From Pseudomonadota bacterium (GTDB lineage: Bacteria > Verrucomicrobiota > Verrucomicrobiia > Limisphaerales > SXTU01): 64,000 bases of DNA. The position numbers and the translations under genes were made by a program. The stretch covers positions 1 to 64,000 of the forward strand of contig RFSE01000007.1 in assembly GCA_009924135.1 (NCBI GenBank), written 5' to 3'. The notes beneath the pieces were generated by a model. The model ran no database searches. It was not told where the DNA came from and saw nothing but the letters and a program-made list of their open reading frames with translations. Shown here piece by piece: positions 40,817 through 59,059 of the stretch; position 1 is the first letter of the stretch, and each line of letters opens with the position of its first letter.

Positions 40817-41101
40817 ATGACAGCGATTTCCAACTGGGAAGCGGTGCCGGACTTCGAGAGCGAAGAAGCCGAGGCGGACTACTGGCGCGAGCACCGCCTC
40901 GACCTGCGGTTGATGGACGCGGCGATGGTGGCGGGCGCGGAGTCCACCGAGTCGGTCACGGTGACGCTGCGGATGGACCCGCGGATGCTCTCGCGCATCA
41001 AGCGCCTCGCGCGGTCGCGGTATCTGAACTACCAGAGCATGGTGAAGCAATGGTTGAGCGAACGGATGGAACAAGAACTACGGGACAAGGCATCGAAATG
41101 A
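40817..41101 (+). CDS. CopG/BrnA-like antitoxin
   Basis: 94 residues. An acidic N terminus ([20 protein letters not shown]) could wrap the toxin. It is followed by a ribbon-helix-helix motif, [20 protein letters not shown], then [23 protein letters not shown] antitoxins bind their own promoter. The stop overlaps the first ATG of the broken prepilin gene (ATGA). Confidence 0.75.
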
Positions 41102-41527
41102 AAACGACGACGAATCAAACATCAACCGGGGCGCGGGACACGGGGGCGTTCTCCCTGATCGAGCTCCTGATGGTCATCTCCATCCCCCGCCATGATGAGC
41201 AGCGTCTTTCCGGTGCCGGCACCGGGGCAGCCGGGCTTCGTAAATGCCGCGCCCAACACGGCCACCAAGCCCCGCTACGTATTGCCCCTGCAGGTGGGCA
41301 CGAGCAAGACGGCGGACATCGCCATGATCGATTTCACGGGCACGGGACCGATGATGTTTTTACGGGTCCCGGCGGATCACCCACTCGCCAACACGACGGT
41401 GCCCATCAACACCTGGCGTTACCGCGCCTACCCCGCCGCCGGGCACAACCCGAAGAGTTACGACCTCTGGGCGGAGATCAAACAGAGCGGCGGCGGCACC
41501 AACATCATCGGCAACTGGACGAAATAA
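41098..41527 (+). pseudogene. Broken prepilin gene (leader and C-terminal fragment in different frames)
   Basis: ATG 41098 begins a normal prepilin leader, [20 protein letters not shown] followed by IELLMVISI, but after about 41185 the frame turns to His/Arg-rich noise. From 41192 another frame carries protein-like sequence ([40 protein letters not shown]) to a stop at 41527. The helix after ISI is missing. A deletion that joined the leader to the C-terminal part out of frame explains both observations. An assembly error is possible. A fused reading through to the next prepilin is unlikely. Confidence 0.65.
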
Positions 41528-41541
41528 TTTTTTATCAGACA

Positions 41542-42318
41542 ATGAAATCCCATCCTCATCCACCACGTTCCAACCGTCAGGGCATGACCCTGATTGAACT
41601 GTTGGTCGTCATCAGCATCATCGGCGTGCTCGCCGGCTTGATCATGCCCGCCTTGTCCAAGGCCAAGCAGCGGGCGCGCGAGTTGCAGGCCCGGAAGGAC
41701 ATGTCGGACATCAAGGGGGCCATCAGCACCTATCAGCAGGATAACAACCGCCTGCCGGCCTCCATCACCGCGACCACGGCGGCCAACGACTTCACTTATG
41801 GCACCAGCAGCTCGGCTGCGAGCCCCGCTTTTACTGGCTATGGGACCAACATCATCAACAGCACGGCGGCGACTTACCAGGCCAACAATTCTGAACTGAT
41901 GGTCATTCTCACGGCGGGGGCCACCAACGGCATGACTTTGACCATCGAAGCCAGCGTGATGAACAACGGGCGCAACCCTCGCAGGACGGGCTATTACAAC
42001 CCCAAGCTTTCGCCCAGCGCCGGCGCGAAAGCGGGGCCGGGCATGGGCACGGACGGGGTCATGCGCGATCCGTGGAGCAATCCGTACATCATCGCGCTGG
42101 ACTTGAACTACGACGGCTGGGTCTCCAACTCCGTCTATAACGCGGTGGCGATGAACACCGGCACCACCACCATGGTGCCGCAGGGTGCGCCCGGCACGAG
42201 CACTTACGCCGTCAAGGATTCGGTGATGATTTTTTCCTTCGGCCAGGACGGATTCTTCGACAAGACCCTCCCCTCTGATGCATCGCCCAACCGGGATAAC
42301 ATCCTAAGCTGGAAGTAA
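41542..42318 (+). CDS. Prepilin-type protein, GspG-like (major pseudopilin position)
   Basis: 258 residues from ATG 41542. The leader is [20 protein letters not shown], with cleavage after Gly and Glu5 kept, then a hydrophobic helix [20 protein letters not shown]. Like GspG it has the C-terminal region [20 protein letters not shown] and an ending with [17 protein letters not shown], which recalls calcium-binding loops of major pseudopilins. It is the first intact gene of a G-H-I-J-K ordered run. Confidence 0.85.
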
Positions 42319-42322
42319 GCCT

Positions 42323-43312
42323 ATGAACTGCCCCGGTCAACCCATCTGTTCATCTGATCAGCCGACCTCGTTTGTCCCGGACGCGGGCCGGGGCGGCGGG
42401 CGCAGTCGGGGTGCCTTCACCTTGATCGAGATGCTGGTGGTGCTGGGCATCATTGGCATGCTGGCGGCGATGACCCTGCCGTCCATCAACAACTCGCGGA
42501 AGGGCAACATCTCCGAGAGCGTGACGCGGCAGTTGATGGATGACCTGGCCAACGCGCGGCTCAAGGCCATGAGCCTGCGCACCAAGGTGTATGTGGTGTT
42601 CGCGCCGGACCTGAACTGGTTTGGGGCGCTGAATGCCAACCAGACTGCCATGCTGACGACCAATCTCGCCGCCAACACGATCGCGGGCGGTCAGTTGACC
42701 ACCTACGCCCTCTTTTCCCCCCGGGTCGTGGGCGAGCAACCCGGGCAGAACACCCCCCGGTATTTGAGTGACTGGCGTTCCCTGCCCAGCGGATCGTTCA
42801 TCCCGGCTTCGCTGTTCCGCGAGCCCGGCGTGTTTCATAATGTGGCGGGCAGTCCGCAAGCTGCGTTCATTCCTGCCGATGATTCCCAGGGCGCGCTGGC
42901 CATGAACCTGCCCTTCATTGGGTTTGATGAGCAGGGCCGGCTCTTCGGGCGGAACACCAACATCGCCATCAGCATCATCGAGGGCAGCATCATGCACCCC
43001 CAGGATGCCACCGGGCAGACCAACCAGGTGGTCAATACGGACGAGGTGGAGACTTCTCCGCCCGTCAATTCAGGCCAGATCGTAGGCGGCATCGAATATC
43101 TGGTGGCGGGGCAGCTTTCACCCGTCGGGGTGCGGCCGCGCATCCGTTACAACGGCATCAATTACTCGGCGGGTCAGACCTTCGTGGGGATAAATGGCAT
43201 TCCGGCCTACACGATACTGGCCGGCCCCCGCCCCCGCGTGGTGCAGCATTATGGCGTGCGGATCGACTGGATCACCGGCCGGGCCAAGGCCATCAAACCC
43301 GAACTGCCGTGA
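42323..43312 (+). CDS. Prepilin-type protein, GspH-like
   Basis: 329 residues. A longer leader (about 31 residues, rich in Gly/Arg) ends GRSRGAFTLIEMLVVLGIIG; cleavage is expected before Phe. The body (NISESVTRQLMDDLANARLK) resembles GspH/FimT pseudopilins, with a beta-rich C-terminal part. It starts five bases after the G-like stop. The stop overlaps the I-like start. Confidence 0.8.
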   Translation: MNCPGQPICSSDQPTSFVPDAGRGGGRSRGAFTLIEMLVVLGIIGMLAAMTLPSINNSRKGNISESVTRQLMDDLANARLKAMSLRTKVYVVFAPDLNWFGALNANQTAMLTTNLAANTIAGGQLTTYALFSPRVVGEQPGQNTPRYLSDWRSLPSGSFIPASLFREPGVFHNVAGSPQAAFIPADDSQGALAMNLPFIGFDEQGRLFGRNTNIAISIIEGSIMHPQDATGQTNQVVNTDEVETSPPVNSGQIVGGIEYLVAGQLSPVGVRPRIRYNGINYSAGQTFVGINGIPAYTILAGPRPRVVQHYGVRIDWITGRAKAIKPELP

Positions 43313-44205
43313 ACCTCTCCCACCTGCAACGACTTGGCCGTGATCATACGGCGGATTTCTCCCTCTCCTTTTGCGGAGCAAGGGGTGAGTGGGTGGATGA
43401 AGGCAAAAGGCAAAAGGCAAAAGGCAAAAGGGGGACAGACCTCGGCCGGCACTTTTTCCTTTTTCCTTTTTCCTTTTTCCTTGCCTCCCCCCTCTTCCGG
43501 CTTGCGGACACCGGCTCCCCTCGTTCTGCGAAGGGAGCCGGGCGCGCCCGTCTCGAACAGGCCTTCACCATGGTGGAAGTCGCCCTGAGCCTGGCGATTG
43601 TGGCCTTTGCACTGGTGGCCATCATTGGCGTGATGCCGGTGGGCTTGAACGTACGGAAGGAAAACCGCGAGGACACCATCATCTCGCAGGATGCGTCCGC
43701 GTTGATCGAAGCCATCCGGACCGGCTCCGGCACCTCCAACTTGAACACGTTGTCCGCCGCGCTGGTGCAGTTGACCGGGCCGGCCACGCCGTTCTCCGGG
43801 ACCAACGCCAGTTCCGCCGACATTGTCAGCCGGCTGTGCATTCCGCGCTGGGATACGACCAGTGCCACGGGCTTGGTCCGGGCCTATTTTCATGCCATGA
43901 GCGGAAACCTGGGGGATGTTTCCGGGACCAACACCTCCGCCGTGGCGTTCGGCTATGTCGTGACCTCCGAGGTGACGAATTACACGGGCGTGCCGGGCAA
44001 TGCGGCGCTCAACCGGTACCTCACCAACAATCTTTACGAGGTGAAGCTGACCTTCCAGTGGCCGGTTTATGAGCCGCCGCCCGGGCAGTTCCCCGCCAAT
44101 TTTGGCAACGGCAAATTGGTGATGCGCACGCTGATCAGCGGGGAACTGGTGACCAATGGCAACGGGGGATATTTCTTCCAGGGAGCAAACTACTACGGCC
44201 AATGA
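43309..44205 (+). CDS. Prepilin-type protein, GspI/PilV-like, with repeat-containing leader
   Basis: 298 residues from GTG 43309 (GTGA overlap); GTG 43393 is the only other plausible start. The prepilin helix AFTMVEVALSLAIVAFALVA begins near residue 85, giving an exceptionally long leader. That leader is partly encoded by four GGCAAAA units and four TTTTTCC units, read as KRQKAKGKRG and FFLFPFSFFLASPLF. The mature part is Thr/Asn/Ser-rich (FSGTNASSADIVSRLCIPRW) and resembles minor pseudopilins. A change in repeat number would shift the frame before the pilin. Confidence 0.78.
   Translation: MNLSHLQRLGRDHTADFSLSFCGARGEWVDEGKRQKAKGKRGTDLGRHFFLFPFSFFLASPLFRLADTGSPRSAKGAGRARLEQAFTMVEVALSLAIVAFALVAIIGVMPVGLNVRKENREDTIISQDASALIEAIRTGSGTSNLNTLSAALVQLTGPATPFSGTNASSADIVSRLCIPRWDTTSATGLVRAYFHAMSGNLGDVSGTNTSAVAFGYVVTSEVTNYTGVPGNAALNRYLTNNLYEVKLTFQWPVYEPPPGQFPANFGNGKLVMRTLISGELVTNGNGGYFFQGANYYGQ
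43402..43480. repeat. Two 7-base tandem repeats inside the GspI-like leader
   Basis: GGCAAAA occurs four times at 43402-43429 and TTTTTCC four times at 43453-43480. The two arrays are roughly inverted. Seven is not a multiple of three, so copy-number slippage changes the reading frame of the downstream pilin. Confidence 0.85.
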
Positions 44206-45377
44206 AAACCAAGATCAAGCATCCACAATGGCCGGTCCGGGGCGTCACCATCCTGGAGCTGATGGTGGCCGTGAGCCTGATTTCATTCATCATTCTCGCG
44301 CTCTACCAGATGTTTGACCGCACGCAGGGGCTCATGCGCGGGGCGGTGCGCGAGGCGGACAAGTTCGAGAACGGGCGGGCGGCCATGGACATCCTGCGCC
44401 GGGATTTGTCCCAGATGGGTTACGTGAAGACGCTCTTCGATTCAGGTGCGGGCGCGGTCACGAACTGGCCGGCGGTCGTGTTGCCGCCTACGCCTTACAA
44501 CGCGGGGACCTATTACCCTGCGGGCAGCGTGGTGTTTTCGGGCGTCAATGCGTATTTCGCGGTCAGGGGGACGCAGGGCAGCGCGCCTTCGCCGGTGAGC
44601 AGCTCCCCGTGGGCCTTGGCGGCACCCAATTTCCGCATCAGCGAGTTCGCCCAGGTGGCCAGTCCGCTCGTGCTGCTGAGTTCCGGCGGCAATCCGTTGC
44701 TGACCAACACCCTGCACGATGTGTTTTTCATGTACTTCGATCCGCTGATCCGCACCACCGTCACACCCAGTGGTTCAATCATGGCGGGCTCCAGCTACGT
44801 GGCCAGCAACACCCTCACGTATGCTGCGCTGGCCCGGCAGCCAGGGGATCCTTTTTTTGGACGGACGGGCATTGCCACCTATACGGGTGGGGCCAACCGG
44901 GCGGTGCTGGTCGAGGGTGGCTGGCGGGCTGTGGGCTATCGCGTAGCCTCTTCCACGAACGCATCCATTCTGCTCGGGTCGGCTGGCCCGGGACCGCAGG
45001 TCGGCACACTGTACCGGTATGAGCTGGGCACGCTGGACAACGATGCGCGTCGGATGTGGCTGGGCTTCACCAATTTCGCGGGAACCAATTTCCCGGCAGT
45101 GACCAGTGTCTTTCAGCGGGTGGCGGAGAACGTGGTGCATTTCCGCTGTCAGGCCGTGACCGGCAACGGCAGCCCCTTCGAACTGACGCCCGGGACGGGC
45201 AGCCTCCTGATGCTCGGCACAAACGTTCCCTCTTTGGTGCAGGTGGAGCTGGGCATCATTGATGCCAAGGTGGCCGGCCAGGTGTCAGCCATCGGCACCA
45301 CCAATTATTTCGTCCAGCAGGGGGATTCCGTGCAGATCTTCCGCCAGCAAATCGCCATCCGCCTCGGCCAGCAATGA
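44202..45377 (+). CDS. Prepilin-type protein, GspJ/PilW-like
   Basis: 391 residues from ATG 44202 (overlap ATGA). Leader MKTKIKHPQWPVRGVTILEL, cleavage after Gly with Glu5 kept, then MVAVSLISFIILALYQMFDR. The segment DKFENGRAAMDILRRDLSQM is the helix typical of GspJ/PilW. The rest is a beta-rich domain with many Thr/Asn. The stop overlaps the K-like start. Confidence 0.82.
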   Translation: MKTKIKHPQWPVRGVTILELMVAVSLISFIILALYQMFDRTQGLMRGAVREADKFENGRAAMDILRRDLSQMGYVKTLFDSGAGAVTNWPAVVLPPTPYNAGTYYPAGSVVFSGVNAYFAVRGTQGSAPSPVSSSPWALAAPNFRISEFAQVASPLVLLSSGGNPLLTNTLHDVFFMYFDPLIRTTVTPSGSIMAGSSYVASNTLTYAALARQPGDPFFGRTGIATYTGGANRAVLVEGGWRAVGYRVASSTNASILLGSAGPGPQVGTLYRYELGTLDNDARRMWLGFTNFAGTNFPAVTSVFQRVAENVVHFRCQAVTGNGSPFELTPGTGSLLMLGTNVPSLVQVELGIIDAKVAGQVSAIGTTNYFVQQGDSVQIFRQQIAIRLGQQ

Positions 45378-48300
45378 ACCTTTGCCCTTCCAGCTCTCCG
45401 GTATCGTGGTCCAGCCGCCGCAGCGGCGGTGTGGCCCTGGTCGCCACGCTGATCATGCTCTCGCTGGTCACCTTCATGGTGGTCGCCTTCCTCGGCGTGG
45501 CCCGCCGGGAGCGCCGGCAGATGGAGACGGTTGGCAACATGGATGTCTCGCGCGCGGCCACGCAGGCGGCACAGTCGCGGGCCATGGCGGAAGTCCTTGC
45601 CCGCCTGCTCGCCACGGGTGACAAATACAATTACGGGGTGATGGTCTCGACGAGCTTCCAAAGTTTCAATTTCACCAACAACGGGGTGGTGAATCCCTAC
45701 AACGTCAACCACACGAACGCCGTGGCCGTGGGTGGGTGGCTGCAAAATCTGGCGAGCCTGCAATTCGATCCGCGGCTGCCGGTCTTCTCGCCTTACTACG
45801 CCAACGTCACCCCTTACGATCCGCTCCAGAGCGAGGCTGTCCAGGGCCGCTGGTACCTTGATTTCAATCGCAGCGGCATGTTCGATTCGACCGACCGCTA
45901 TCAGGCGGGTGACCCGCACTGGATTGGCATGCTGGAGTTTCCGGATGCCCCGCACAGCGCAAACAACCGGGGCATCGGCCGCTACGCCTATCTGGTCACC
46001 CCCGCCGGCAAGGCGCTGGACGCGAACTGGATTCATAATCAAGCCAAGCTGCCGGGAGCTTCGTTTGCCACGGAAGGATACTACCGCAATCTTGGGCTGG
46101 GACCGCAGGAAATGAACCTCGCTGCGCTGCTGGCGGAATTGAACCCGTACTGGGGCTGGTTCGACCCGGCGGGCAACCAGGCCTATGACCCCAACCCGGG
46201 CAATCAGAGCCTGTTCATTCCCAACAGCCGTGATCCCTTTCGGGACGCGCTCAACCTGCTGTTGTACCGGAACAACGGGGGATACAACAATCAGGCGACT
46301 TTAAATGCCATGTTCGGGGCAGGACCGGCGGCCAATTTGCTGGCATCCCAGTTTGACGTGCTGGGCAACGGCCCGTTGATGATCTCCACGAACCTCACTG
46401 TTAACGCCGATGTGAACAACTTCTGGGCCGGTGGCAGCAACAGTTCGACCCTGCCGCAGCGTTATTTCGACGTGAACGAACTGTTCATCCAGAACCCCGC
46501 CCGGTCCTATTCGACCACGTTCACCACGAACCTGCTGTACCTTTCCACGACCAACGAGGCGGTGTCCACTCCGGTGGGCGAACGCAACCGGCGCACCCTA
46601 TACACGCTGCTGTCCACCTTGGGCACGGAGTCGTGGCCGGTGAACGGGAAGCTGAACTTGAACTGGTCCAACTCGGTGTTCAACGGGTACGGCACCAACA
46701 TTCAGATCGGCTCCTCGGGCGGCGAACTGGGAAACTTTGCCAGTTGGGAACCGAACTACTTCTTCTACTACGCGGCCGAGCTGATGCTCCGGGCCAGCAT
46801 CACCCCGAGTGTTTTCATCAACCAAAACTGGACCGGGTTTGGCGGCGCGGCCACGAACGTGCTGTTTACCAACTACTACATCGCGGGTGATAACCTGGCC
46901 CTCGCCGGCACGAATTACCTCCCCACGCCCCTGTTCCTGAGCACCAACAGTTCGCCGACGCTGAGCATCACCAACATCCCGCTCCATCCGGTCAGCTACT
47001 ACACGCCGGAAGTGCACCGGATACTGCAACTGGCGGCCAACATTTACGACGCCGCAGGCCCGCCCGAGTGGATTGCCAAAGCTTATGCGGGCGGCGACCG
47101 TGTCCAGCGCGGCGGCGTCGCCTACGTGTCGCTGGTCAACGGTAACGTCACCGTGCCGCCCTCGGCCTCATGGCAGACCATCACCGGTCCGTTCCTGCCC
47201 ACGCTCTTCCGGCCGATGTTCGGGTTTAACACCAACGGCTGGCCCACCAACGACCTGGTCTATATCATGGGCTACACCACCAACCAGACGGACCCCACGT
47301 TGCTGGGCCTGCGGATCTTTGACCTGACGGACCCGGATGGCCGGATGGCGATGTACACGAACGCCGGTGCGGTTGTCGCCGCGAATGGGGTTGGCACGCA
47401 TCAGACCTGCCTCATGGCCGGTACACCGGTGATCGTCGGGGCCCGGCGCGGCTATCCCAATTTCAACGAGTTTGGGATCCAGACCATTTTCTCCGACACG
47501 CGCCGGCTTGAGTTTGTGAAGACCAATGCGACCAACTTCGGGCCCAATGCGATCGTCATGACAAACCAGTCGCAGATCATCGGCCTGACGAACATCTTCG
47601 GATTTGAGGTGTGGAATTCCTATTACACCACGTTTCCCCGAGCCCTCACCCTGGTGGCGACCAATGTTTCCCATGTCGTTCTGACCAACGAATTTGGCCC
47701 GGTTTACACCAACATCAGCACCAACGGCTTCCAAAGCGTCATCCCCGCCAACACGTGGCCGGGCACCTCCAACGGGATCTCGAGCTTCAAGGGATTTTTC
47801 TTCACGAAGATCCCGCAATTGTCCACGAATGTGGCCCAGGGTTACGGCTACGCGACCAACTTTCCGCCGCTGCCGGGCTACACCAACGGCGGCTTCATTC
47901 CCGCCAGTTTAAGTCCCGGCGGCATCCCAAGTTATTTCAGCCGGTCCAACGGGTTTCCGGAGATGAAGCTGGGCCTTACCATCACCAATACCATTACCTA
48001 CGCGCTCTTCGAGCCGGGGCCTGCAAGCCGGGTGGTGGATTTCGTGACGCTGACCAACCTGGTCACGGGGGTGAACCTGACGACCGCGTTGATCACCACC
48101 AACAGCGCGGACCCGAACGCCGACCCCGGGGTGCGGTTCTGGCAGACGAACCGCGTGGGCGGTCCCTCGGTGTTCAATCCGACCATTGGCATCACCAACC
48201 AGATCGCGATGTGTCTGGACACCAATGTGAATGCCAACACCACGAATTACTGGCGTCAGCTTGCGATGAGCCGGAATACCGACATCGCCAGGGAGGTGGA

Positions 48301-50071
48301 CAAATTCCGGCGCTTTTTGGGCCTGCCCACCGTTTTTCCGGTCAACCAGCTTCCGGCCCCGGGTTCCTCCTATCAGGCCCCATTCACCCCCACGCGGGTG
48401 ATCACCTTCAACACTTCCTGGGAGGTCAACGACCCGCTGGTGCACCACACCACGCGCGATTTGACGGACCCCTTCCGCACCTCGCTCGGGGATCAGATTT
48501 CAGTCCTGCCGCTGCCCATCAACTATCCGATCCCGCCGCCGGGCACCCTGTATCGCAAGGATGTGGGGTTTGTCGGAAACAGGTTGGCCACGACCCCGTT
48601 CGGCGGGACCAACCGCAACTACATGCCCTGGGGGCGGGGGCTGGCCACGATTGGTACCACGCTGGGCAATTACACGAACGCCAGCGGTGCCATCACCAAC
48701 TTCTACCTGGTGGCGCCGCCGGCCTACGACCAGCGGCTCAAGGACGCCGGCATCTACGGTTCCGACGCGTGGGACTTTCCGCAGCGCAAGTTCGCCAACC
48801 TGGGCTGGCTCGGGCGGGTTCACCGGGGCACCCCCTGGCAGACGGTTTATCTCAAGTCGGACATCCCCAACCCGACGAACTGGTTCTACTGGGCGCGCAG
48901 CGCGACCACCAATCCCACCAACGACTGGCGGCTGATGGATGTGTTCTCCGCCGCCATCAACGCCGACGCCACGCGCAGCCTGCTCTCCGTGAACCAGACC
49001 AACAGCATCGCCTGGGCGGCGGCCCTGGGGGGCGAACTGGTGTTGTCCAACAACGGCGTCTTCATCGTGCCGATGACAATCTCGCCCCAGACGCCCCAGC
49101 TGACCAGCATCGTGGGCGGCCTGACCAACGGCATCATCAATACCAAGCAGCGGATTCCCCTGTGGCAACCGGTGACCAGTTACAGTCCGGGGGATGTGGT
49201 GAGCTACTTCAACGGACCCTACGGTTTCTTGAACTATTACATCGCCGTCAACGGCACGAACCAGAACCAGAATCCCTACATGCAGGTGACGGTTTCGAAC
49301 CAGCTCACTTATTGGGCGAACATTTACCCGTGGAGAGCGACGACCAATTACGCGGCCGGGGATGTGGTGGCGCATTATGGTGTGTCCTATTACTCGCTCT
49401 TCGCCGGCAACTTGAACCTCCCGCCGGATGCGAATCCGGGGGCGTGGGAACCTTACCAGTATCGGTCGTTCACCCGGATGGGACAGGTGCTGGGCACGCC
49501 GGAGTTGAGCGTGCAGTCGCCCTATTTGAATGGCAGCCAGGTTTGGCAGTTGGCCACGCCCTACGCCACCGGGGCCCGGGTCTATTGGCAGGGCTGGTAT
49601 TATCAAGCAATGCGCCCGGCACCGGCCAACCAACCGCCCAATCCATTGGCTGATTTTACTAATCCGCGTACGCTAAACACACCTGCTGGTACTTGGTGGC
49701 CGGTGGAAACGCCGGTGCTGGCGCGGCAGGTGCCCGACGCGCTGAACGATGTCTTCATTGAACGCATTCCGCAGCAGACGCTGGGCCTGCTCCAGTTGGA
49801 GACCAGTCCGCGGTTTAAGATTTATTCCTATGGCCAGGCGCTGAAACCGGCGGACCGGGGCATTTACGTGGGCGGGGCGCCCTATCAGGGCATGGTGACG
49901 AACTACCAGATCACGGGTGAAGCCGCCACGCTCACCGTGGTGCGGGTGGAGGGACTGCCGGAACCGGGTTTCCTGCCGCGTCCGCTGCCGGTGGTGCTGC
50001 CGCCCCAGACCCCGCCCGTGCAGCCGCGCGTGGTGGTGGAAAGTTTCAAACAATCGCCCGCGTCGTTATAG
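45374..50071 (+). CDS. Giant GspK/PilX-like prepilin protein with CBM-like modules
   Basis: 1565 residues, about five times the usual GspK length. The N terminus SGGVALVATLIMLSLVTFMV has the GspK/PilX form without Glu5. GspK caps the tip of the pseudopilus with I and J, and the G-H-I-J-K order fits. The body is Asn/Thr-rich and beta-prone. Four stretches resemble CBM5/12 (chitin-binding type): about 566-601 (WIAKAYAGGDRVQRGGVAYV), 1264-1300 (WQPVTSYSPGDVVSYFNGPY), 1320-1357 (WRATTNYAAGDVVAHYGVSY) and 1391-1440 (WQLATPYATGARVYWQGWYY). The family looks like Verru_Chthon cassette protein A (from memory). It could be a tip adhesin for polysaccharide; that is inference. Confidence 0.8.
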   Translation: MNLCPSSSPVSWSSRRSGGVALVATLIMLSLVTFMVVAFLGVARRERRQMETVGNMDVSRAATQAAQSRAMAEVLARLLATGDKYNYGVMVSTSFQSFNFTNNGVVNPYNVNHTNAVAVGGWLQNLASLQFDPRLPVFSPYYANVTPYDPLQSEAVQGRWYLDFNRSGMFDSTDRYQAGDPHWIGMLEFPDAPHSANNRGIGRYAYLVTPAGKALDANWIHNQAKLPGASFATEGYYRNLGLGPQEMNLAALLAELNPYWGWFDPAGNQAYDPNPGNQSLFIPNSRDPFRDALNLLLYRNNGGYNNQATLNAMFGAGPAANLLASQFDVLGNGPLMISTNLTVNADVNNFWAGGSNSSTLPQRYFDVNELFIQNPARSYSTTFTTNLLYLSTTNEAVSTPVGERNRRTLYTLLSTLGTESWPVNGKLNLNWSNSVFNGYGTNIQIGSSGGELGNFASWEPNYFFYYAAELMLRASITPSVFINQNWTGFGGAATNVLFTNYYIAGDNLALAGTNYLPTPLFLSTNSSPTLSITNIPLHPVSYYTPEVHRILQLAANIYDAAGPPEWIAKAYAGGDRVQRGGVAYVSLVNGNVTVPPSASWQTITGPFLPTLFRPMFGFNTNGWPTNDLVYIMGYTTNQTDPTLLGLRIFDLTDPDGRMAMYTNAGAVVAANGVGTHQTCLMAGTPVIVGARRGYPNFNEFGIQTIFSDTRRLEFVKTNATNFGPNAIVMTNQSQIIGLTNIFGFEVWNSYYTTFPRALTLVATNVSHVVLTNEFGPVYTNISTNGFQSVIPANTWPGTSNGISSFKGFFFTKIPQLSTNVAQGYGYATNFPPLPGYTNGGFIPASLSPGGIPSYFSRSNGFPEMKLGLTITNTITYALFEPGPASRVVDFVTLTNLVTGVNLTTALITTNSADPNADPGVRFWQTNRVGGPSVFNPTIGITNQIAMCLDTNVNANTTNYWRQLAMSRNTDIAREVDKFRRFLGLPTVFPVNQLPAPGSSYQAPFTPTRVITFNTSWEVNDPLVHHTTRDLTDPFRTSLGDQISVLPLPINYPIPPPGTLYRKDVGFVGNRLATTPFGGTNRNYMPWGRGLATIGTTLGNYTNASGAITNFYLVAPPAYDQRLKDAGIYGSDAWDFPQRKFANLGWLGRVHRGTPWQTVYLKSDIPNPTNWFYWARSATTNPTNDWRLMDVFSAAINADATRSLLSVNQTNSIAWAAALGGELVLSNNGVFIVPMTISPQTPQLTSIVGGLTNGIINTKQRIPLWQPVTSYSPGDVVSYFNGPYGFLNYYIAVNGTNQNQNPYMQVTVSNQLTYWANIYPWRATTNYAAGDVVAHYGVSYYSLFAGNLNLPPDANPGAWEPYQYRSFTRMGQVLGTPELSVQSPYLNGSQVWQLATPYATGARVYWQGWYYQAMRPAPANQPPNPLADFTNPRTLNTPAGTWWPVETPVLARQVPDALNDVFIERIPQQTLGLLQLETSPRFKIYSYGQALKPADRGIYVGGAPYQGMVTNYQITGEAATLTVVRVEGLPEPGFLPRPLPVVLPPQTPPVQPRVVVESFKQSPASL

Positions 50072-50084
50072 CACGGAGCTGACC

Positions 50085-50228
50085 ATGAAAGCCCTTGCTC
50101 ATCCGTCCGTGCCGCCCGGTTCCCTTTTGCCAACGGCGGCGGGGGGGGCGGGTTTCAGCAATCGACTGTATTGTGGAACCGGCTTCGCAGGCGGTAAGTT
50201 GATGACGCTGTCGCACTATTTTCTATGA
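50085..50228 (+). CDS. Possible 47-residue small protein before the subtilase-like gene
   Basis: ATG 50085 has GGAG six bases upstream (50075-50078) and its stop TGA overlaps the next gene's ATG (ATGA). The translation starts MKALAHPSVPPGSLLPTAAG and ends GKLMTLSHYFL. It has no recognised domain and no signal peptide. It could serve only to couple translation of the giant gene, or may not be coding. Confidence 0.35.
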   Translation: MKALAHPSVPPGSLLPTAAGGAGFSNRLYCGTGFAGGKLMTLSHYFL

Positions 50229-53200
50229 AAAGCCGCAATTGGTTTTTAGTTGGACTGCTGCTCTTGCTGGCGGCCGCGCTCGTCATGCGCCAGGGCGAAC
50301 ATCAGCGGCAGCGCGCAGCGCAACAGCCGGGCCCGTCGGCGACCACCCAGCCGGGCATGTGGGAGCGGTTTACCAGCCTGCCGGCCGCGCTGCTGGGGCG
50401 CAAGCCGGCCAGTGCCAAGCCGGCCCCGGCCACCGGGGTTCTGTTTCCAGCCAAAGTCACCTCGCTCAGTGATGACAAGGATTTCCCTTTCCGCGTCCGC
50501 AATACGAAGCTGCCGGACGAGGCGTTGTTTCGCAGCGAATCCGCCGTGTTGCTCCGCAACGCATTGATCGAGACCCGCGAACCGGTGCGGTTGAACATTC
50601 CCGCCCACCTCCGGGCGGAAGGGGAGCCGGGCAGCTATCTCGTCCAGGCGCGCGGGCCGATTGACCGGCGCTTTCGCGAAGTGTTGCGCGGGGCCGGCGT
50701 GGAAATCGTCAGCTACGTGCCCAACAACGCCTACCTGATACGGGCCAATGCCAGCCTGGCGCAGCAGTTGCGCGTTTCGCCTTATGTGCGGAGCGTGCTG
50801 CCCTTCGAACCTTATTACAAACTGGACATGCAGTTGCTGCCGCTGGCGGTGCGCCGTGACGCCCTGCCGGAGGGCGGCTGGCTGAATCTCGTGGTGTTTC
50901 CCGGCCAGCAGGAGCAGGCCAAGGCGGACCTCCGGGCACTCGGGGCCGTGGTGAAGTCGGAGCAGCCCTTTCCCTTCGGCCATGTCGTCACCATCGCTCC
51001 GCCGACGGACAGCCTGGTGGCGCTGGCCCAAATGACCGCCGTGCAGAACATCGAGGCCTACCAGTCTCCGCTCTTCATGAACGATCTCTCCCGCGCGCGG
51101 CTGGATGTCTCCGTGGGCATTGATGCGACCACCACCAATGCCAACTGGCTTAATTTGACGGGCCTCGGCGTGATCGTGGGCCTGCCTGGCTCGGGGGTGG
51201 ATTTGGGCCATCCGGAACTGGCCGGCCAGACCTACTTGAACGCGAACAGCCCGGCCATTGATGTCAGCGGCCATGAGACTTTCACCGCCGGGGCCATGGT
51301 GGCGCTGGGACTAAGCTCGCCGTCCCCCGTTTACGGTTCGCTTCCCGGTGCCAGCCAACGGGGCATCGCCCCGGGGGCCAAGGTCTATCCGCTGTCCTTG
51401 TATGACGTTTCATACACGAACTATGGAAATTACTGGATCGCCACCAACATGGCCACGGCGACGAACATTCACATCGTCAACGGCAGCTTTGGTTACGCCA
51501 GCTTCGGGTACACGATCAACTCGGCCCTCTTTGACCAGTGGACCCGCGATTCGGACCCGGCTCGCACCAATGACCAGCCGATGACCTACGTCTTCGCCGT
51601 GGGCAACAAAGGAGGGGCCAACTCCGGTGGCACCGGCGGACGCTCGGATACCATCAATTCGCCCGGCAACGCCAAGAACGTCATCTCCGTCGGTGCCTTG
51701 GAGCAGTTCCGCCTCGTGGCCAACTCGATCTATAAGGCTTCGGCGACCAATGACCCGATTGCCGTCGCCCACACGGACAGCGACAACCAGGTCGCGGACT
51801 TTTCGGGCCGGGGCAATGTCGGGGTCGGCATCGAAGGGCCGTCCGGGCGCTTCAAGCCTGACGTTGTCGCCCCGGGTGGCTACGTGCTCTCCCTGCGGTC
51901 CTCCACCTTTGCGGCGACGAACGTCACCGAAACCGACGATACGCTGGGCGCATCCTCCCCGGGTACATACTGGCGCTACGATTCCGGCACCAGCTTTGCG
52001 GCGGCCAAGGTGTCCGGTGTGCTGGCGTTGATGGAGGAGTTCTTCAACACGAATTACGGCATGACCAACGGCCTGAACCCGTCGTTGAACAAGGCGTTGC
52101 TCATCAACCGCGCCGGGTCGGCCGGGCTGGCCTACGATTTCGCCGTGAACAACACGGTCACGCATCAGGGCTGGGGCATTCCCTCCCTGAGCAACACGGT
52201 GCCGGCATTGACGGGAATTTCGTTCCTCACCACCAATGTCGCTTCGGCCAGCAACAACATCATCATCGTGGACGAGAGCGCCTTTGCGACCAACCACCTG
52301 ACCACGGGCGAGTCGCACGCTTACGATATCACCTTGCCGGCCACCTTCAGCAGCACCAACACGCTGAAAATCACCCTCACCTGGACTGACCCGCCCGGCA
52401 ATCCGTTGTCCTCCACGAAGCTCGTGAACGATCTGGACCTGGTGGTGAGCAACGCCTTTCTCGCGGTCACCAACATTTATGAAGGCAACAACTTTGCGGC
52501 GGGCAGCCTCACCAGCCAGACGACGCCCGAGGGCAGCACGAGTCAAAGGGACTCCGTCAACAACGTGGAGAACGTTTACATCACCGGCATTACGAATCTC
52601 CTCACCCCCTACCGGGTTTATGTGATCGGGCACAAGGTGAACGTCAATGCCGTCACCGCGAACACCAACGACGTCGTGCAGGACTACACGCTGGTGATCT
52701 CCACGGACGACAACCTGCCGGCTCATGGCATCACGGTCGCCGCCGTTACCGTACCAAGTTTTGGGACCTACACGAACCGCTTGGTGGGCGCGATCACCAA
52801 CGGCGTTCCGTATCTCGAGGAGCGCATTGGCGCGAACTCGCCATTTGCCTACGTCGGCACGACGCCCAATACGAATGGCTCGACCAACCAGTGGAATTTC
52901 TACGTGTTCACGAACCAGAATAACGCGCCCACCGCGACCAACACGGTCACGAACATTGTCGGCGGCGTCACGAATATCGTTACCAATGTCGTGACTCTGC
53001 CGCTCACCAATGGCGGGCCGTACGTGACCTTCGCCACCTTCCTGCCGCCGAATCTGGCCAAGGCGCGCAACAAGGATGCGGACATTGATTTGTACGTCAC
53101 GCGGAACTCCCTGGTCTATGGGGGCAGCGGTGCCAGCGGGCTGACCAATCTGGACCCGGCGGTGATTTCCGACCCCAACACGCTGCGCTCCACCAACCGC

Positions 53201-56200
53201 GGCGGCTACGAGCTGATTTCCCTTTCGAACTCCGCGCTTGGTGAGATTTTCTACATCGGGGTGAAATCGGAAGACCAGCAGGGCGGCGCCTATGGCTTCT
53301 TTGCGTCCGCCTCACAATTTCCCTATTCCACCAACGGCACGAGCGGGGCACCAGTCATCACGTTGTTCCCGGCGCCCATCGACATTCCGGACGGCTCGCC
53401 GGAGCTGCCGGGCGGGGTGACACTCTACGGCATCTCCACGACCAACATGATCATCCAGAGCGTGGACGCCATCCTCCAGTTCACGCATGAAAACCTGGGT
53501 GATTTGGTGGGCACGCTCACCCACAACGGTGTCAGCGTCACGCTTAACAATCATGCCATCTCGCCAGGGGCGACCTTCCCCGGCACAGGTGGCGGGTTGC
53601 AGACCAACATCCTGACCTACAACGCCTACACCAACCCTCCGGACGGCCCCGGGGACGTGACGGATTTTCTGGGCATGGATTCGGTGGGCGTCTGGATCCT
53701 GGAGGTCTATGATAATTCGCCATTCCTCACCGGACGGGTGGATGATGCCACGCTTTTCATCCGGCCCTTCACCAATGCCCTGCGTACCAACGGCAATCAG
53801 TTCACCCGCACCATCACGCTGAATCCCGGCCAGTCGATTGTGGACTTCATTGATGTTCCGGCCTATGCCACGAATCTGGATGTGGATATCGTCGGCGGCC
53901 TGCCGACTCCGCCGACCGCGCCGGGGCAGGGGGTGGATCTGTTTGCCGGCTATCTGTTTGTGCCCGCCCAGTCCAACTTCACCCTGGCAGCACTGGACTT
54001 GGATTCTTCGTCCCCGCATCCGACCATGTCAATTTCCCCCACGGCCAGCCCGCCGTTGCTGCCCGGCCGGTGGAATTTCCGCTACGTGAACAACACCGCC
54101 GGCATCCTGTCCTTGGACCTCGTTTACACGCTGGGTTTCAATCTGGCGGTGTCGGATACGAAGTTCTACTTCACCAATTCCTTGGTGTCGCTGCTGGACA
54201 ATTACACGACCAACCTGTTCATCAGCGTGCCGGACGACCGCGTCGTCGCCGGGGTGGAGGTGGGCTTGGCGATCCTGCATCCGCGCGTGGAAGACCTGGT
54301 CATCCATCTGGTCAGTCCTCGCGGCACGAGAGTGCTGCTCTTCGAGAACCGGGGCGGTACCAACGGCAATGTGGCAGCGTTGAACCCGTACACGTCGAAC
54401 CTCTTCGCCAATTTCACGGAGGACACGAACCACACTACGTCGGTGAGCAAGGACGGCACCGCCACCAACTTCCTGCACTATGATTACCTGCTCCCCATCA
54501 AGTTCGTGCCGCCACCCTACAGCGCGGTCATTTCGCCGCCCCGGCTGATGACGAACATGACCAACACGCTTTTCGGCTACGGGGACAGCGCCTTCACGGC
54601 GGTCAACGAGTCGCCGCGCGCCATGGCGCAGTCCGGCAACTTGCTGGTCATGGCCGGGGCCGTGGACCGCTATGGCACGAACGACGGGTTCATCGCCGCT
54701 TACCAGACGCCCATTCTCACCAACCAGACGACCTACTTCACCAACGTCTTTACCAACACGAGCGGGGTGCAGGTTTCCAATGTTTACGTTGTCAACCCCA
54801 CCAACTGGACGATGTCCAACTACTGGGCCGGGCCGTTCAGCGGCTATCGCGGCTCCAACCAGACGACCCCCACCCCGGACCAGACCTTCTTCAGTGGCGT
54901 GGCCGTCAATCCGATCGGGGTCTATGCCGTCGGTCAGACCCGCAACTATTTCCCGGGAACGGACATCACCTGGTCGGGTGACTCGAACCGGAATGTCTTC
55001 GACGTGGACTTGGGCTGCACGAATGGCCGGATCGAAATGATCCACCATGTGGGCATCCCGCGCGCCCGGGTGATCATCGAGTACGAGGGCCAGTATCTGC
55101 TCGACCAGACCTTTACCAACAATCCGGCGGGGAGCCTTAACGAATACATCAGCGGCCCCTTCAGCGGCAGTTCCCGGTTCATGCGGTTCATTGTCAACCC
55201 GCTCGGGACGAACAACGCGGTGAAGTGGACCAACGAGCTGTGGATTCAACGCTCCACCGGTGGGGGGCTCAGTTATTCCCTGTCCACCCTGGTCCCCAGC
55301 GGGGCCTTCCAGTTCACTACACCGCTTCCGTCGGTCATGCCGGCGGTTTCGCAGTTGAGCCAGCCACGGGGCGTCGCGCTTGATTCCACCGGCAACGTCT
55401 ATGTGGCCGATTCTGGGAATGACCAGATTGTGCGGTTCGACCAGCGGCTCACCATTTCTTCGGTGGGCACCAACGCCACCTACCTGCCGTTCAGCGCCAA
55501 CCTCGCCGGTTTGAGCCGGCCCAGTGGCGTGGCGGTGGACACGAACGGCAACATCTACGTGGCGGACACCGGCAACCATCAGATCAAGCTCTTCACGAAC
55601 AACAGCGGGACGCCGGTCACCGTCTGGGGCACCGGGACGGCGGGTACCTCAAATGGCGCGCCCGCCGCTGCCCAGTTCGATAGCCCCGAGGGCATCACCA
55701 TTGCACCGAACGGTACGATTTACGTGGCGGACACGGGGAATAACCTCATCCGGACGATTGACCCGACGAACCAGACCGTGGCCACCCTGCCGCTGCCTGC
55801 GGGGGTTGCCGGATACTCCGGGCCCCGGGCCGTACTCGCCCCGAACTTCGGCGCGACGTGGGTCAACGGCCAGGCCTATTCCAACTCCGTAAACCTCTGC
55901 GTTGCCGACACCGGCAACAATCAGGTGTATTGGTTGACCCTGAGCAACGGCACCTGGGTCGCCACGGTCATTGCCAATTACAACCAGCCTTCCGGGCTGG
56001 CCTATGATGGCAACCAGAACGTGTATGTGAGCGTGGCGGGCCACAACCGGATTAGGAATATCCACCTGGGGGACATCCTGGCCGGCGACCCGACCAGTGG
56101 ATTTTTGGCCGGCAATTTGGACGCTGATCAGGGTATCAATGGCCTGCTCAACGATCCTCGCGGCATTGCCGCCGACCGCTACGGCACCATTTTCGTAGCG

Positions 56201-59059
56201 GACCGGGGCAACGATGCCGTCCGGTTGCTTTCGCCTTACCAAAGCCAGATGCCCACCAATGCCTTCGTCACCGTCTTCCCGGTCGGCGGCGTCACGAACA
56301 CGCAGCCCATTGGCTCGGCTTCAGTCCTCACCACGCGCGGGATTACCAACTCCGTCTTTGGCCTCGAACTGGGCGGTACCCCGAACCGTGACTATCTCAG
56401 CGGGATTGTCACCAGTCCGGAGAACGGCACGAACTTCCTTTATGCCGTCGGCAACGCGCAGTTCAGTTCCAATACCGCCGCCGGCCTGGACCAGATCAAC
56501 CGGGTGTTTGTTTCCAAGCTTGCCACCAATGGCCAGCCAATATGGGTGCGGGCGTATCAGGAGGTGGCCATCATCCAGGCCCAGGTGGATCTGCTGGGGG
56601 CCATCACCAACTTGGCCGTGCTCTATGGCGGCTCCGGCTATACCGCTCCGCCGGTGGTCACGATTTTGGATCCTTTCAATCCCGTGGTGACCAACCAGGC
56701 CGTTTCGGTCACCGTTACGGTCGGTGGCGGCGCAGTGAATGGCATCACCGCGCCGGCCACACCTCTGACCGGTCCGTTCGTCTCGCCGCGCGTGTATGTG
56801 GAAGCTCCCGTCTCGCTGGATAATCCCGGCCACGCCATCGCGGTGGCCTACGGCACCAACGTCATCGTAGCCGGACTGACCAACTCCAGCGCGAGTCCGC
56901 TGACCACCAACAACTTCCCGTTCCTGCTGTCCCTGGAACCGACGAATGGTGCGACGCTGTGGACGGCGAATTCGCCGGTGAGCGGACATTTTAACGCGCT
57001 GGCGGTCTCCGCCTCGGGCATCATCGCGGTCGGCGCGCAATACACGGCGGGCAACACGTTCCAATCTACTTGCCTGATCGAGAAGTGGAGCCTCGGTGGT
57101 ACGCAGATGCTCACCACGAATTTCGACTTTGGGGTGGGCACCACGAGCGTGCTCAACGGGGTGGTCGTGGTGGATTCCATTGACCGCGCCTATGCGGTGG
57201 GCAGTGTTTACAGCGGCCAGATTGTGGACGCGTTTCTGATGGAGATCGACCTGACCACGCTGGCAATCGTGTCCACCGCGGTGAACAATCTCACCAACTT
57301 TTCGGGGCTGGCTTTGGGGGTGCAAAACTCGACGAACTTCGGCACCGCCATCACCACCGATGGCGTGGACATCTACGTCTCGGTGGAGGGACCCTGCCCG
57401 GGCAACCGGGTGGACCGGCAGGCCGGCATCTTCCGTTACCGCGCGAAAAACTACTACCTGCCGGAAGAGTCGCTGGACGCGTTTGTGGGCGAGCGGACCT
57501 GGGGAGTCGGACCGTTTGCCACCAACAGCTCGGGCACGCTGACCAACATCACGGTCACCAACAAACAGTGGTATCTGGAAATCGCCGACACGCGCATCGG
57601 TGGCACCAATGGCAACGCCCAGGTGTTGTCGTGGAACTTGAACTTCTCCTACGCGGCGAGCAACACGACCTCCCTGACTTTGCCGCCCAATACCAACGGC
57701 AATTTCCTGCTGCTGTCTTCCGGTCAGAGCTTTGTCGTCAATGTGCCCCCTTCGGCCACGCAGGCGACGAACTACATCAATGCCAGCGGACCGGTCAAAG
57801 TCACGTTCAACCCCGTTGGGGCCGCTGTGCAGGGAGCCGTCGGGAACATTGATGTGTTCGGCGGCACCGCTGGCACGTTCGTGCTCTCCAATTCGGCCGG
57901 GGTGGCGGCGTCACCCGGGCGCACGATCGCCAGTGTTTCCAATACCACCAGCAACTCGCCGGTGATCCCCAATACGGCGGGTCCGGTGCCGCGCCTGCGT
58001 CCGGGTGGGCAGTACTACCTGTTTGTGCAGCCGATGGACGGGTCGAACCCCGTCAATCTCTCCATGCGCGTGGACTTCAACCAGCCGGCCCAGACCATTG
58101 CCACGCTGGCGAACGGACAGCCGATGGCGGACTCCATGCCCCGCACGACGGCCTTGAATTACTACCAGTTTGACGTGCCGGCCAACTCGGCGTACGCGTC
58201 GTTTGAGGTGCTGAATCCCAGCGGGAATGTCAACCTGTACCTGGCGCGCTCCAATGCGGTGTCGGCCTTGCCGTCCACGACGGTCTATGACTACCGCAGC
58301 GCCAACCCGGGCACGGCGGCCGAACAAATCTTCCTCGTGACCAACACGGCTTCGCCTATGGCCCTTACGCCGGGCACCTGGTTCCTGGGCGTGGAAAACG
58401 CGGACCGGGTGCCGGTGACCTTCACGGTGCGGGCCACGGCGGGGAGCGGGCTGCCTTATGTGGTCACCACGGCGGCGAGCGGCCAGCCGTATGCGGCCGT
58501 CACGCCGCCGGGCAATGCCCCGCGCGCCCTGTTCCGCCTGCCGGTATCCACGCCGGTGAAATCGATTCTCTTCGAGGTGCGGGATCTCGATGGCGACGGC
58601 GATCTCGTCGTGCGCCGGGGCGCATATCCTCTGGCAACGACTTTCGATGCGGCGAACTTCCGTTCGGGGATGCTGGCGGAAGAAGTTGGGGTCCGTACCA
58701 ACGCCGGTCTGCCCAGCCTGGTCGGCGACTGGTATTTCGGGGTGCTAAACCGGGGGGACACGCACATCAGCTACCAGGTCATGTCCCGGCTGGCCTCCAA
58801 TGGCGTTTTGTTGGGCAGCAGTCCCATTCAGGCCAGGCCGCCCAGCTCCAGCATGCTGGTTGGCGGTCAGGGCTTTGGCTTCGATCTCGATGTGGTACCC
58901 GGTGAAAATTACCAGATTCAATACCTGACGAACCTAGCCTTCCCGAACTGGCAGGTGCTGACCAATATCACCGCCCCGCCGGATGGCATCATCAACTTCA
59001 TCCACTCCGGTGCGCTTTCGAACCGGAACCTCTACTACCGCATTCAAGTCGTCCCGTAG
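50225..59059 (+). CDS. Giant secreted subtilase-fold protein, probable pseudoprotease
   Basis: 2944 residues with N-terminal anchor NWFLVGLLLLLAAALVMRQG. After a pro-region (to about 280) comes an S8 domain of the KP-43 type, residues about 290-640. The canonical Asp reads GLPGSGVDLGHPEL (Gly322), the canonical His reads SGHETFTAGAM (Phe353), while Asn461 (AVGNKG) and Ser590 (DSGTSFAAAKVSG) are kept. A beta-barrel follows (LKITLTWTDPPGNPLSSTKL), then P-domain-like segments (about 1055-1180 and 1300-1410), NHL-type repeats (about 1710-2020, e.g. RPSGVAVDTNGNIYVADTGN), PPC-like domains (about 2630-2870) and a C-terminal domain ending NLYYRIQVVP. Two catalytic residues are missing, so proteolysis is unlikely. 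It is Thr/Asn-rich like the K-like pilin before it. Confidence 0.85.
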   Translation: MKSRNWFLVGLLLLLAAALVMRQGEHQRQRAAQQPGPSATTQPGMWERFTSLPAALLGRKPASAKPAPATGVLFPAKVTSLSDDKDFPFRVRNTKLPDEALFRSESAVLLRNALIETREPVRLNIPAHLRAEGEPGSYLVQARGPIDRRFREVLRGAGVEIVSYVPNNAYLIRANASLAQQLRVSPYVRSVLPFEPYYKLDMQLLPLAVRRDALPEGGWLNLVVFPGQQEQAKADLRALGAVVKSEQPFPFGHVVTIAPPTDSLVALAQMTAVQNIEAYQSPLFMNDLSRARLDVSVGIDATTTNANWLNLTGLGVIVGLPGSGVDLGHPELAGQTYLNANSPAIDVSGHETFTAGAMVALGLSSPSPVYGSLPGASQRGIAPGAKVYPLSLYDVSYTNYGNYWIATNMATATNIHIVNGSFGYASFGYTINSALFDQWTRDSDPARTNDQPMTYVFAVGNKGGANSGGTGGRSDTINSPGNAKNVISVGALEQFRLVANSIYKASATNDPIAVAHTDSDNQVADFSGRGNVGVGIEGPSGRFKPDVVAPGGYVLSLRSSTFAATNVTETDDTLGASSPGTYWRYDSGTSFAAAKVSGVLALMEEFFNTNYGMTNGLNPSLNKALLINRAGSAGLAYDFAVNNTVTHQGWGIPSLSNTVPALTGISFLTTNVASASNNIIIVDESAFATNHLTTGESHAYDITLPATFSSTNTLKITLTWTDPPGNPLSSTKLVNDLDLVVSNAFLAVTNIYEGNNFAAGSLTSQTTPEGSTSQRDSVNNVENVYITGITNLLTPYRVYVIGHKVNVNAVTANTNDVVQDYTLVISTDDNLPAHGITVAAVTVPSFGTYTNRLVGAITNGVPYLEERIGANSPFAYVGTTPNTNGSTNQWNFYVFTNQNNAPTATNTVTNIVGGVTNIVTNVVTLPLTNGGPYVTFATFLPPNLAKARNKDADIDLYVTRNSLVYGGSGASGLTNLDPAVISDPNTLRSTNRGGYELISLSNSALGEIFYIGVKSEDQQGGAYGFFASASQFPYSTNGTSGAPVITLFPAPIDIPDGSPELPGGVTLYGISTTNMIIQSVDAILQFTHENLGDLVGTLTHNGVSVTLNNHAISPGATFPGTGGGLQTNILTYNAYTNPPDGPGDVTDFLGMDSVGVWILEVYDNSPFLTGRVDDATLFIRPFTNALRTNGNQFTRTITLNPGQSIVDFIDVPAYATNLDVDIVGGLPTPPTAPGQGVDLFAGYLFVPAQSNFTLAALDLDSSSPHPTMSISPTASPPLLPGRWNFRYVNNTAGILSLDLVYTLGFNLAVSDTKFYFTNSLVSLLDNYTTNLFISVPDDRVVAGVEVGLAILHPRVEDLVIHLVSPRGTRVLLFENRGGTNGNVAALNPYTSNLFANFTEDTNHTTSVSKDGTATNFLHYDYLLPIKFVPPPYSAVISPPRLMTNMTNTLFGYGDSAFTAVNESPRAMAQSGNLLVMAGAVDRYGTNDGFIAAYQTPILTNQTTYFTNVFTNTSGVQVSNVYVVNPTNWTMSNYWAGPFSGYRGSNQTTPTPDQTFFSGVAVNPIGVYAVGQTRNYFPGTDITWSGDSNRNVFDVDLGCTNGRIEMIHHVGIPRARVIIEYEGQYLLDQTFTNNPAGSLNEYISGPFSGSSRFMRFIVNPLGTNNAVKWTNELWIQRSTGGGLSYSLSTLVPSGAFQFTTPLPSVMPAVSQLSQPRGVALDSTGNVYVADSGNDQIVRFDQRLTISSVGTNATYLPFSANLAGLSRPSGVAVDTNGNIYVADTGNHQIKLFTNNSGTPVTVWGTGTAGTSNGAPAAAQFDSPEGITIAPNGTIYVADTGNNLIRTIDPTNQTVATLPLPAGVAGYSGPRAVLAPNFGATWVNGQAYSNSVNLCVADTGNNQVYWLTLSNGTWVATVIANYNQPSGLAYDGNQNVYVSVAGHNRIRNIHLGDILAGDPTSGFLAGNLDADQGINGLLNDPRGIAADRYGTIFVADRGNDAVRLLSPYQSQMPTNAFVTVFPVGGVTNTQPIGSASVLTTRGITNSVFGLELGGTPNRDYLSGIVTSPENGTNFLYAVGNAQFSSNTAAGLDQINRVFVSKLATNGQPIWVRAYQEVAIIQAQVDLLGAITNLAVLYGGSGYTAPPVVTILDPFNPVVTNQAVSVTVTVGGGAVNGITAPATPLTGPFVSPRVYVEAPVSLDNPGHAIAVAYGTNVIVAGLTNSSASPLTTNNFPFLLSLEPTNGATLWTANSPVSGHFNALAVSASGIIAVGAQYTAGNTFQSTCLIEKWSLGGTQMLTTNFDFGVGTTSVLNGVVVVDSIDRAYAVGSVYSGQIVDAFLMEIDLTTLAIVSTAVNNLTNFSGLALGVQNSTNFGTAITTDGVDIYVSVEGPCPGNRVDRQAGIFRYRAKNYYLPEESLDAFVGERTWGVGPFATNSSGTLTNITVTNKQWYLEIADTRIGGTNGNAQVLSWNLNFSYAASNTTSLTLPPNTNGNFLLLSSGQSFVVNVPPSATQATNYINASGPVKVTFNPVGAAVQGAVGNIDVFGGTAGTFVLSNSAGVAASPGRTIASVSNTTSNSPVIPNTAGPVPRLRPGGQYYLFVQPMDGSNPVNLSMRVDFNQPAQTIATLANGQPMADSMPRTTALNYYQFDVPANSAYASFEVLNPSGNVNLYLARSNAVSALPSTTVYDYRSANPGTAAEQIFLVTNTASPMALTPGTWFLGVENADRVPVTFTVRATAGSGLPYVVTTAASGQPYAAVTPPGNAPRALFRLPVSTPVKSILFEVRDLDGDGDLVVRRGAYPLATTFDAANFRSGMLAEEVGVRTNAGLPSLVGDWYFGVLNRGDTHISYQVMSRLASNGVLLGSSPIQARPPSSSMLVGGQGFGFDLDVVPGENYQIQYLTNLAFPNWQVLTNITAPPDGIINFIHSGALSNRNLYYRIQVVP

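Follow-up and report, generated by a model that had tools for sequence, protein, structure and literature searches.

A giant KP-43-type S8 protein with glycine at the catalytic aspartate and an acid beside the catalytic histidine

The giant subtilase-like protein encoded in the window (i.e., the whole 64,000-nucleotide stretch of contig RFSE01000007.1 that was analysed) carries Gly322 at the position of the catalytic aspartate, Asp32 in subtilisin numbering, and a new acid, Glu351, directly after the catalytic base, His350. The two changes go together: in all six genomes in which Asp322 was replaced, an acid was found at 351. From sequence comparisons, we consider it an even chance that this is a secreted, cassette-linked S8 protein of the KP-43 type, whose catalytic carboxylate has left the Asp32 strand and now lies on the residue that follows His350.

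The giant S8 protein and its active site

No stop codon interrupts the 2944-codon reading frame at 50225-59059, as an earlier note on this DNA had described, and full-length orthologues from the same genus contain 2894-3016 amino acids. The features of the gene, all on the forward strand, are:

50225-59059, forward: giant S8 protein, 2944 amino acids, with an N-terminal hydrophobic anchor or signal at about residues 5-22
50621-51082, forward: propeptide region, about residues 133-286, in which two segments resemble I9 by eye, with a conserved x/ND junction at its end
51167-52177, forward: Peptidase_S8 catalytic domain, residues 315-651 (PF00082, E=2.7e-32, 112.7 bits)
51188-51190, forward: Gly322 (GGC), aligned with the catalytic Asp32; 117 of 122 family domains have Asp here
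51272-51274, forward: His350, the catalytic base, retained; the same residue in all 122 family domains
51275-51277, forward: Glu351 (GAG), the new acid directly after the base; all Asp-bearing relatives have Gly
51281-51283, forward: Phe353, non-catalytic and variable, aligned with the second H of GHGTHVAG
51605-51607, forward: Asn461, the oxyanion-hole Asn, retained
51992-51994, forward: Ser590, the nucleophile, retained
54251-54373, forward: P_proprotein, residues 1343-1383, the best of two stretches (PF01483, E=3.8e-11)
55346-56404, forward: NHL beta-propeller region, about residues 1708-2060 (PF01436, E=3.9e-32)

These Pfam matches bear out the S8, NHL and P-domain-like regions of the earlier note, and its assignment to the KP-43 type agrees with the closest solved relatives, i.e., SubHal and KP-43 (1wmd, 5fax). 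The window protein shares with these S8 enzymes the fold, the positions of the His, Ser and oxyanion Asn, the x/ND mature start and a beta-barrel region that follows the catalytic domain. However, residues 32 and 65 are Asp and Gly in these enzymes but Gly and Glu in the window protein, which is also seven times longer and adds the NHL and P-domain-like modules. An AlphaFold2 model of the S8 domain, for which the input was the window sequence together with distant S8 sequences, had a mean pLDDT of 66 and a pTM of 0.77. Its best fold match in the PDB was KP-43 (1wmd, E=5e-20), and it placed a strand just before residue 322 and a helix starting at His350, as in subtilisins. By analogy with the mature start of KP-43 and SubHal, the x/ND junction, which was present in all members of the genus, may be a cleavage site; the sequence NDLSR at the junction was kept in both Asp- and Gly-bearing members. 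At the other end of the protein, a C-terminal module encoded at 58900-59056 (YQIQYLTNL..W...NRNLYYRIQVVP) was strongly conserved, and was also terminal in the orthologues from the genus.

Residues were matched by aligning the window protein with KP-43 and 79 orthologues. The window motif GHETFTAG aligns with GHGTHVAG of KP-43, of which the first H is catalytic and corresponds to His350. The earlier note had read Phe353 as the lost catalytic His, and had concluded that two of the three catalytic residues were lacking. However, the position of the second H was occupied by H, F, Y, L or A in relatives, including those with an intact Asp. Because His350 is kept and Phe353 merely occupies the variable second-H position, a single triad residue, rather than two, is replaced in the aligned sequence (Asp322→Gly). 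The note was right about Gly322 and about the retention of Ser590 and Asn461, both of which were aligned and present, and it had missed the change of Gly351 to Glu beside His350. Thus, the protein has the fold and profile of an S8 peptidase, the catalytic His (in the motif H-E-T, versus H-G-T), Ser590 in G-T-S, and Asn461, but on the first strand it has Gly322 instead of the catalytic Asp.

Coupled states at residues 322 and 351

Among 122 family domains, the residues at 322, 350 and 351 were Asp, His, Gly in 117, Gly, His, Glu in four and Gly, His, Asp in one, and no single-change intermediate, i.e., Asp with an acid or Gly with Gly, was seen. Gly322 occurred in the window and in three other genomes of the same genus (G077, G145 and G146), with residue 351 being Glu, Glu, Glu and Asp, respectively. 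It also occurred in two genomes of the sister family, f48, i.e., G111 (VNGSGID...GHETLVAG) and G086 (VNGTGVQ...GHETHVAG). The G086 domain, which ends at a contig end, is a further case of Gly, His, Glu outside the 122; G048, which belongs to the genus of G086, combines Asp with GHGTHVAG. The earlier note had suggested asking whether its proposed losses were shared by relatives: the loss of Asp was indeed shared by these five genomes, whereas the loss of His was absent throughout. The sequences come from MAGs; because the same change appeared in the independent assemblies G077, G145, G146, G111 and G086, a sequencing error is excluded.

The same pairing emerged when 320 genomes of the order and 388 of the phylum were scanned blindly for a degenerate DNA pattern encoding G-H-[D/E]-T-x-x-A-G, in which position 322 was left unspecified. 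S8 matches were limited to the window's genus and the two f48 genomes, and all of them had Gly322; as a point of reference, about 70 matches to the canonical pattern GHGT were found in 195 genomes of the phylum. At S8 positions that are otherwise invariant, only 322 and 351 separate the Gly/acid from the Asp/Gly members. The codons fit single steps, i.e., GAC→GGC at 322 (the Asp-bearing genus members have GAC or GAT) and GGC→GAC at 351 (as in G146), while GAG or GAA at 351 takes one further change beyond GAC.

Other candidates for a substitute acid were rejected. Asp326 and Asp346 were found in most Asp-bearing relatives too, and therefore do not track the loss of Asp322, and an acid of the sedolisin type at i+4 was rejected, with Thr354, Met or Val occupying that position. 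A pattern search of viral contigs gave one match, GHDTHVAG, which was not in an S8 protein. Viral contigs and plasmids contained remote S8 proteins only, and no relatives of the window protein were found in phages.

To follow the changes over the family, an S8 tree was built without columns 322 and 351. Family f48 and the family of the window's genus (f1) were sisters (99% SH-aLRT in one tree, 99/99 in another), and Gly/acid and Asp/Gly members were interleaved. A single clade of all Gly/acid sequences was rejected (p-AU 6e-93), a Gly/acid clade within the genus was disfavoured (p 0.013), and one within f48 was not rejected (p 0.055); therefore, at least two joint switches at 322 and 351 are required, via parallel gain or via gain and reversal. 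The independent switches are few: the best S8 tree had three, and two are possible. The tree of a neighbouring gene united the four Gly/acid members of the genus (96/97), so that the count within the genus is provisional. If the events at each site fell at random over about 90 branches, the chance of full coincidence would be about 2.5e-4 for two events per site or 8.5e-6 for three, rough figures given that branch lengths differ.

The earlier note had also held that the gene is under selection, and this was upheld by a Nei-Gojobori comparison of the window with G077, in which dN/dS values, rough with dS near 1, were about 0.09 for the S8 domain, 0.04 for the propeptide (the lowest in the protein) and 0.12-0.22 for most of the rest. 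At 101 family-conserved S8 positions, the window protein had 19 losses, G145 had 16 and G146 had 15, and the four Asp-bearing members of the genus had 15-17. General decay of the active site was thus unsupported, the loss of conserved positions being no more rapid than in the relatives with Asp.

In the S8 gene of G077, a deletion of 64 bp puts the propeptide out of frame (L040, 5421-5444); this copy either is misassembled or has recently become a pseudogene. This deletion would fit a scenario of early decay, in which selection on the S8 domain is relaxed and the changes at 322 and 351 are coincidental. We regard this as highly improbable, given the low dN/dS, the recurrent coupling of 322 with 351 and the full-length frames of about 2900-3000 amino acids in the window, G146 and G111.

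The upstream pseudopilin cassette

The S8 gene lies downstream of a block of genes for pseudopilin-like proteins, all on the forward strand:

41566-42318, forward: GspG-like pseudopilin (TIGR01710, E=1.7e-13, below cut-off; PF07963), with its true start probably inside the ORF at 41050-42318
42323-43312, forward: pseudopilin, Verru_Chthon D-like or GspH-like (TIGR02596, E=3e-8, below cut-off)
43309-44205, forward: pseudopilin, Verru_Chthon B-like or GspI-like (TIGR02598, E=6.5e-5, below cut-off)
44202-45377, forward: pseudopilin, Verru_Chthon C-like or GspJ-like (TIGR02599, E=3e-6; TIGR01711, E=5e-6; below cut-off)
45374-50071, forward: 1565-amino-acid protein with a pseudopilin-like N-terminus, Verru_Chthon A-like (TIGR02600, E=0.009, residues 19-72 only), and a CBM5/12 module (PF02839)

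Before the GspG-like gene, at 41050-41565, there is a second prepilin-type signal, after which the frame is interrupted and the rest of a pseudopilin-like protein is encoded in a different frame, apparently the remains of a pseudopilin gene that underwent a frameshift or a deletion.

The window genes match, in one block, the pseudopilin-like proteins of the Verru_Chthon cassette (TIGR02596, 02598, 02599 and 02600). Like that cassette, the block has adjacent prepilin-type genes and a large A-like protein, but proteins A-D do not reach the NCBIfam cut-offs, all of the matches falling far below them (E=3e-8 to 0.009), and the models of the described cassette do not contain a giant S8 gene. Judged by these profile matches, the cassette at 41566-50071 is an undescribed, divergent branch of the Verru_Chthon cassette.

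Of 146 genomes of the order, 130 contained the S8 family. Among the 55 loci of the order with sufficient upstream sequence, 54 had the gene for the 1565-residue A-like protein upstream of the S8 gene, and 53 had at least four of the five cassette genes, the A-like gene included, upstream in the same orientation. The association with a pseudopilin cluster proposed in the earlier note therefore extends across the order and, because the cassette precedes the S8 gene in 53 of 55 loci, the conserved system is a pseudopilus-linked giant S8 protein. The pseudopilus may secrete or display this protein. An orthologue of the S8 family, otherwise found in the window's order, was also present in a public MAG titled Proteobacteria (RFVF01, WB5_2B_004; L120 and L121), and that title is probably wrong.

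A relocated acid and its alternatives

If the carboxylate has been relocated, the replacement of Asp32 (residue 322) by Gly would be offset by an acid arising at position 65 in subtilisin numbering (residue 351), which is Asp in one species and Glu in the others. The side chain of Glu351 would enter or border the cavity vacated by Asp32 and so may reach His350 or the Asp site, where its negative charge would orient His350. With Ser590, His350 and Glu351, the window protein may still cleave peptide bonds, retaining at least a slow or specialised proteolysis, e.g., self-processing of the propeptide. In favour of relocation are the coupling, the blind scan, the recurrence, the retention of Ser, His, Asn and the propeptide junction, and purifying selection; against it, the new acid is at i+1, whereas that of sedolisins is at i+4, the acid of one species is the shorter Asp, and the independent switches are few.

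Three published observations bear on the geometry. Savinase has a closed zone made up of residues 31-34, 64-65 and 123-125, in which 3.2 A separates the CA of Gly65 from the O of Gly34 (PMC11593635); in serine-carboxyl peptidases the acid has "moved" and shares a segment with the base (PMC11593635); and in D32G subtilisin, waters occupy the vacated site and nitrite or azide restores activity, so that the enzyme is not irreversibly dead (PMC7935941). Because of these, the acid at 351 may, by analogy, replace the function of Asp32, be that catalytic or purely structural. The engineered D32G and D32A subtilisins (6UBE, 3BGO; PMC7935941) resemble the window protein in having lost Asp32 while keeping His and Ser, but they are rescued by nitrite or azide without a second-site acid at 65. 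This rescue, together with weak activation of D32G by formate and chloride (PMC7935941), raises the alternative of a conditional protease, in which formate, nitrite, chloride or a carboxylate of the substrate fills the anion pocket at Gly322 and Glu351 tunes it. We think this unlikely, since it leaves the constant acid at 351 unexplained and an acid there would repel anions.

The sedolisins (S53) provide a precedent within the same superfamily, their acid having left the Asp32 segment for the segment of the base (PMC11593635). However, they have a Glu base with an Asp at i+4 (EWDLD; PMC11593635), whereas the window protein has a His base (His350), its acid at i+1 and Thr354 at i+4, and it does not have the sedolisin arrangement. 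Elsewhere in the window's own genome (C30), an ORF on L005 that scores with Peptidase_S8 and contains GTSIAAPLWAAF looks sedolisin-like; its paralogue on L001 has a canonical Asp and HGT.

Loss of Asp32 lowers the activity of an ordinary subtilisin by orders of magnitude. With Asp32 essential as a rule, it is quite possible, although short of probable, that activity has been lost and that the S8 domain is a binding or scaffold module of a pseudopilin-linked surface protein, the acid at 351 restoring merely local charge or helix-capping for folding. Subtilisin-fold pseudoproteases with real functions exist, e.g., CspC of C. difficile (PMC6636752), and CspC and CspA resemble the window protein in keeping a subtilase fold under selection despite changes of catalytic residues. 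A side chain at 65 could also obstruct the site, because Gly65 normally packs against the O of Gly34 (PMC11593635), and the window protein departs from its relatives near the active site (NSW→GSF, V354T). However, in CspC both His and Ser have been replaced (T170 and G485) and Asp is retained (D105; PMC6636752), while the window protein retains both nucleophile and base and has only Asp replaced. Moreover, Ser, His, Asn and the propeptide junction were retained in every readable lineage, the replacement was an acid in all cases, the losses at conserved positions do not exceed those of Asp-bearing relatives, and the other motifs of G111 were canonical (NNSW, SAGNSG, ESGTSMAAPVVSG). The binding or scaffold role that the earlier note proposed next to the pseudopilin cluster is weakened by the acid that accompanies the loss of Asp and by the residues and junction that stay, although the association itself stands.

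Returning to relocation, we tentatively suggest from these sequences that the S8 triad switches naturally and repeatedly between a carboxylate on the Asp32 strand and Glu65 or Asp65 after the His, and that both forms may be working proteases. We found no description of a Ser-His-Glu65 or Ser-His-Asp65 triad geometry. Motif checks would label the Gly/acid proteins dead, which is a warning for annotation. Few residues in this very large protease family are as conserved as Asp32 of the Ser-His-Asp triad, and the paired, recurrent replacement of Asp32 beside close Asp-bearing relatives offers natural experiments on rewiring of the triad. The same set of proteins bears on how an acid migration like that of the sedolisins could begin.
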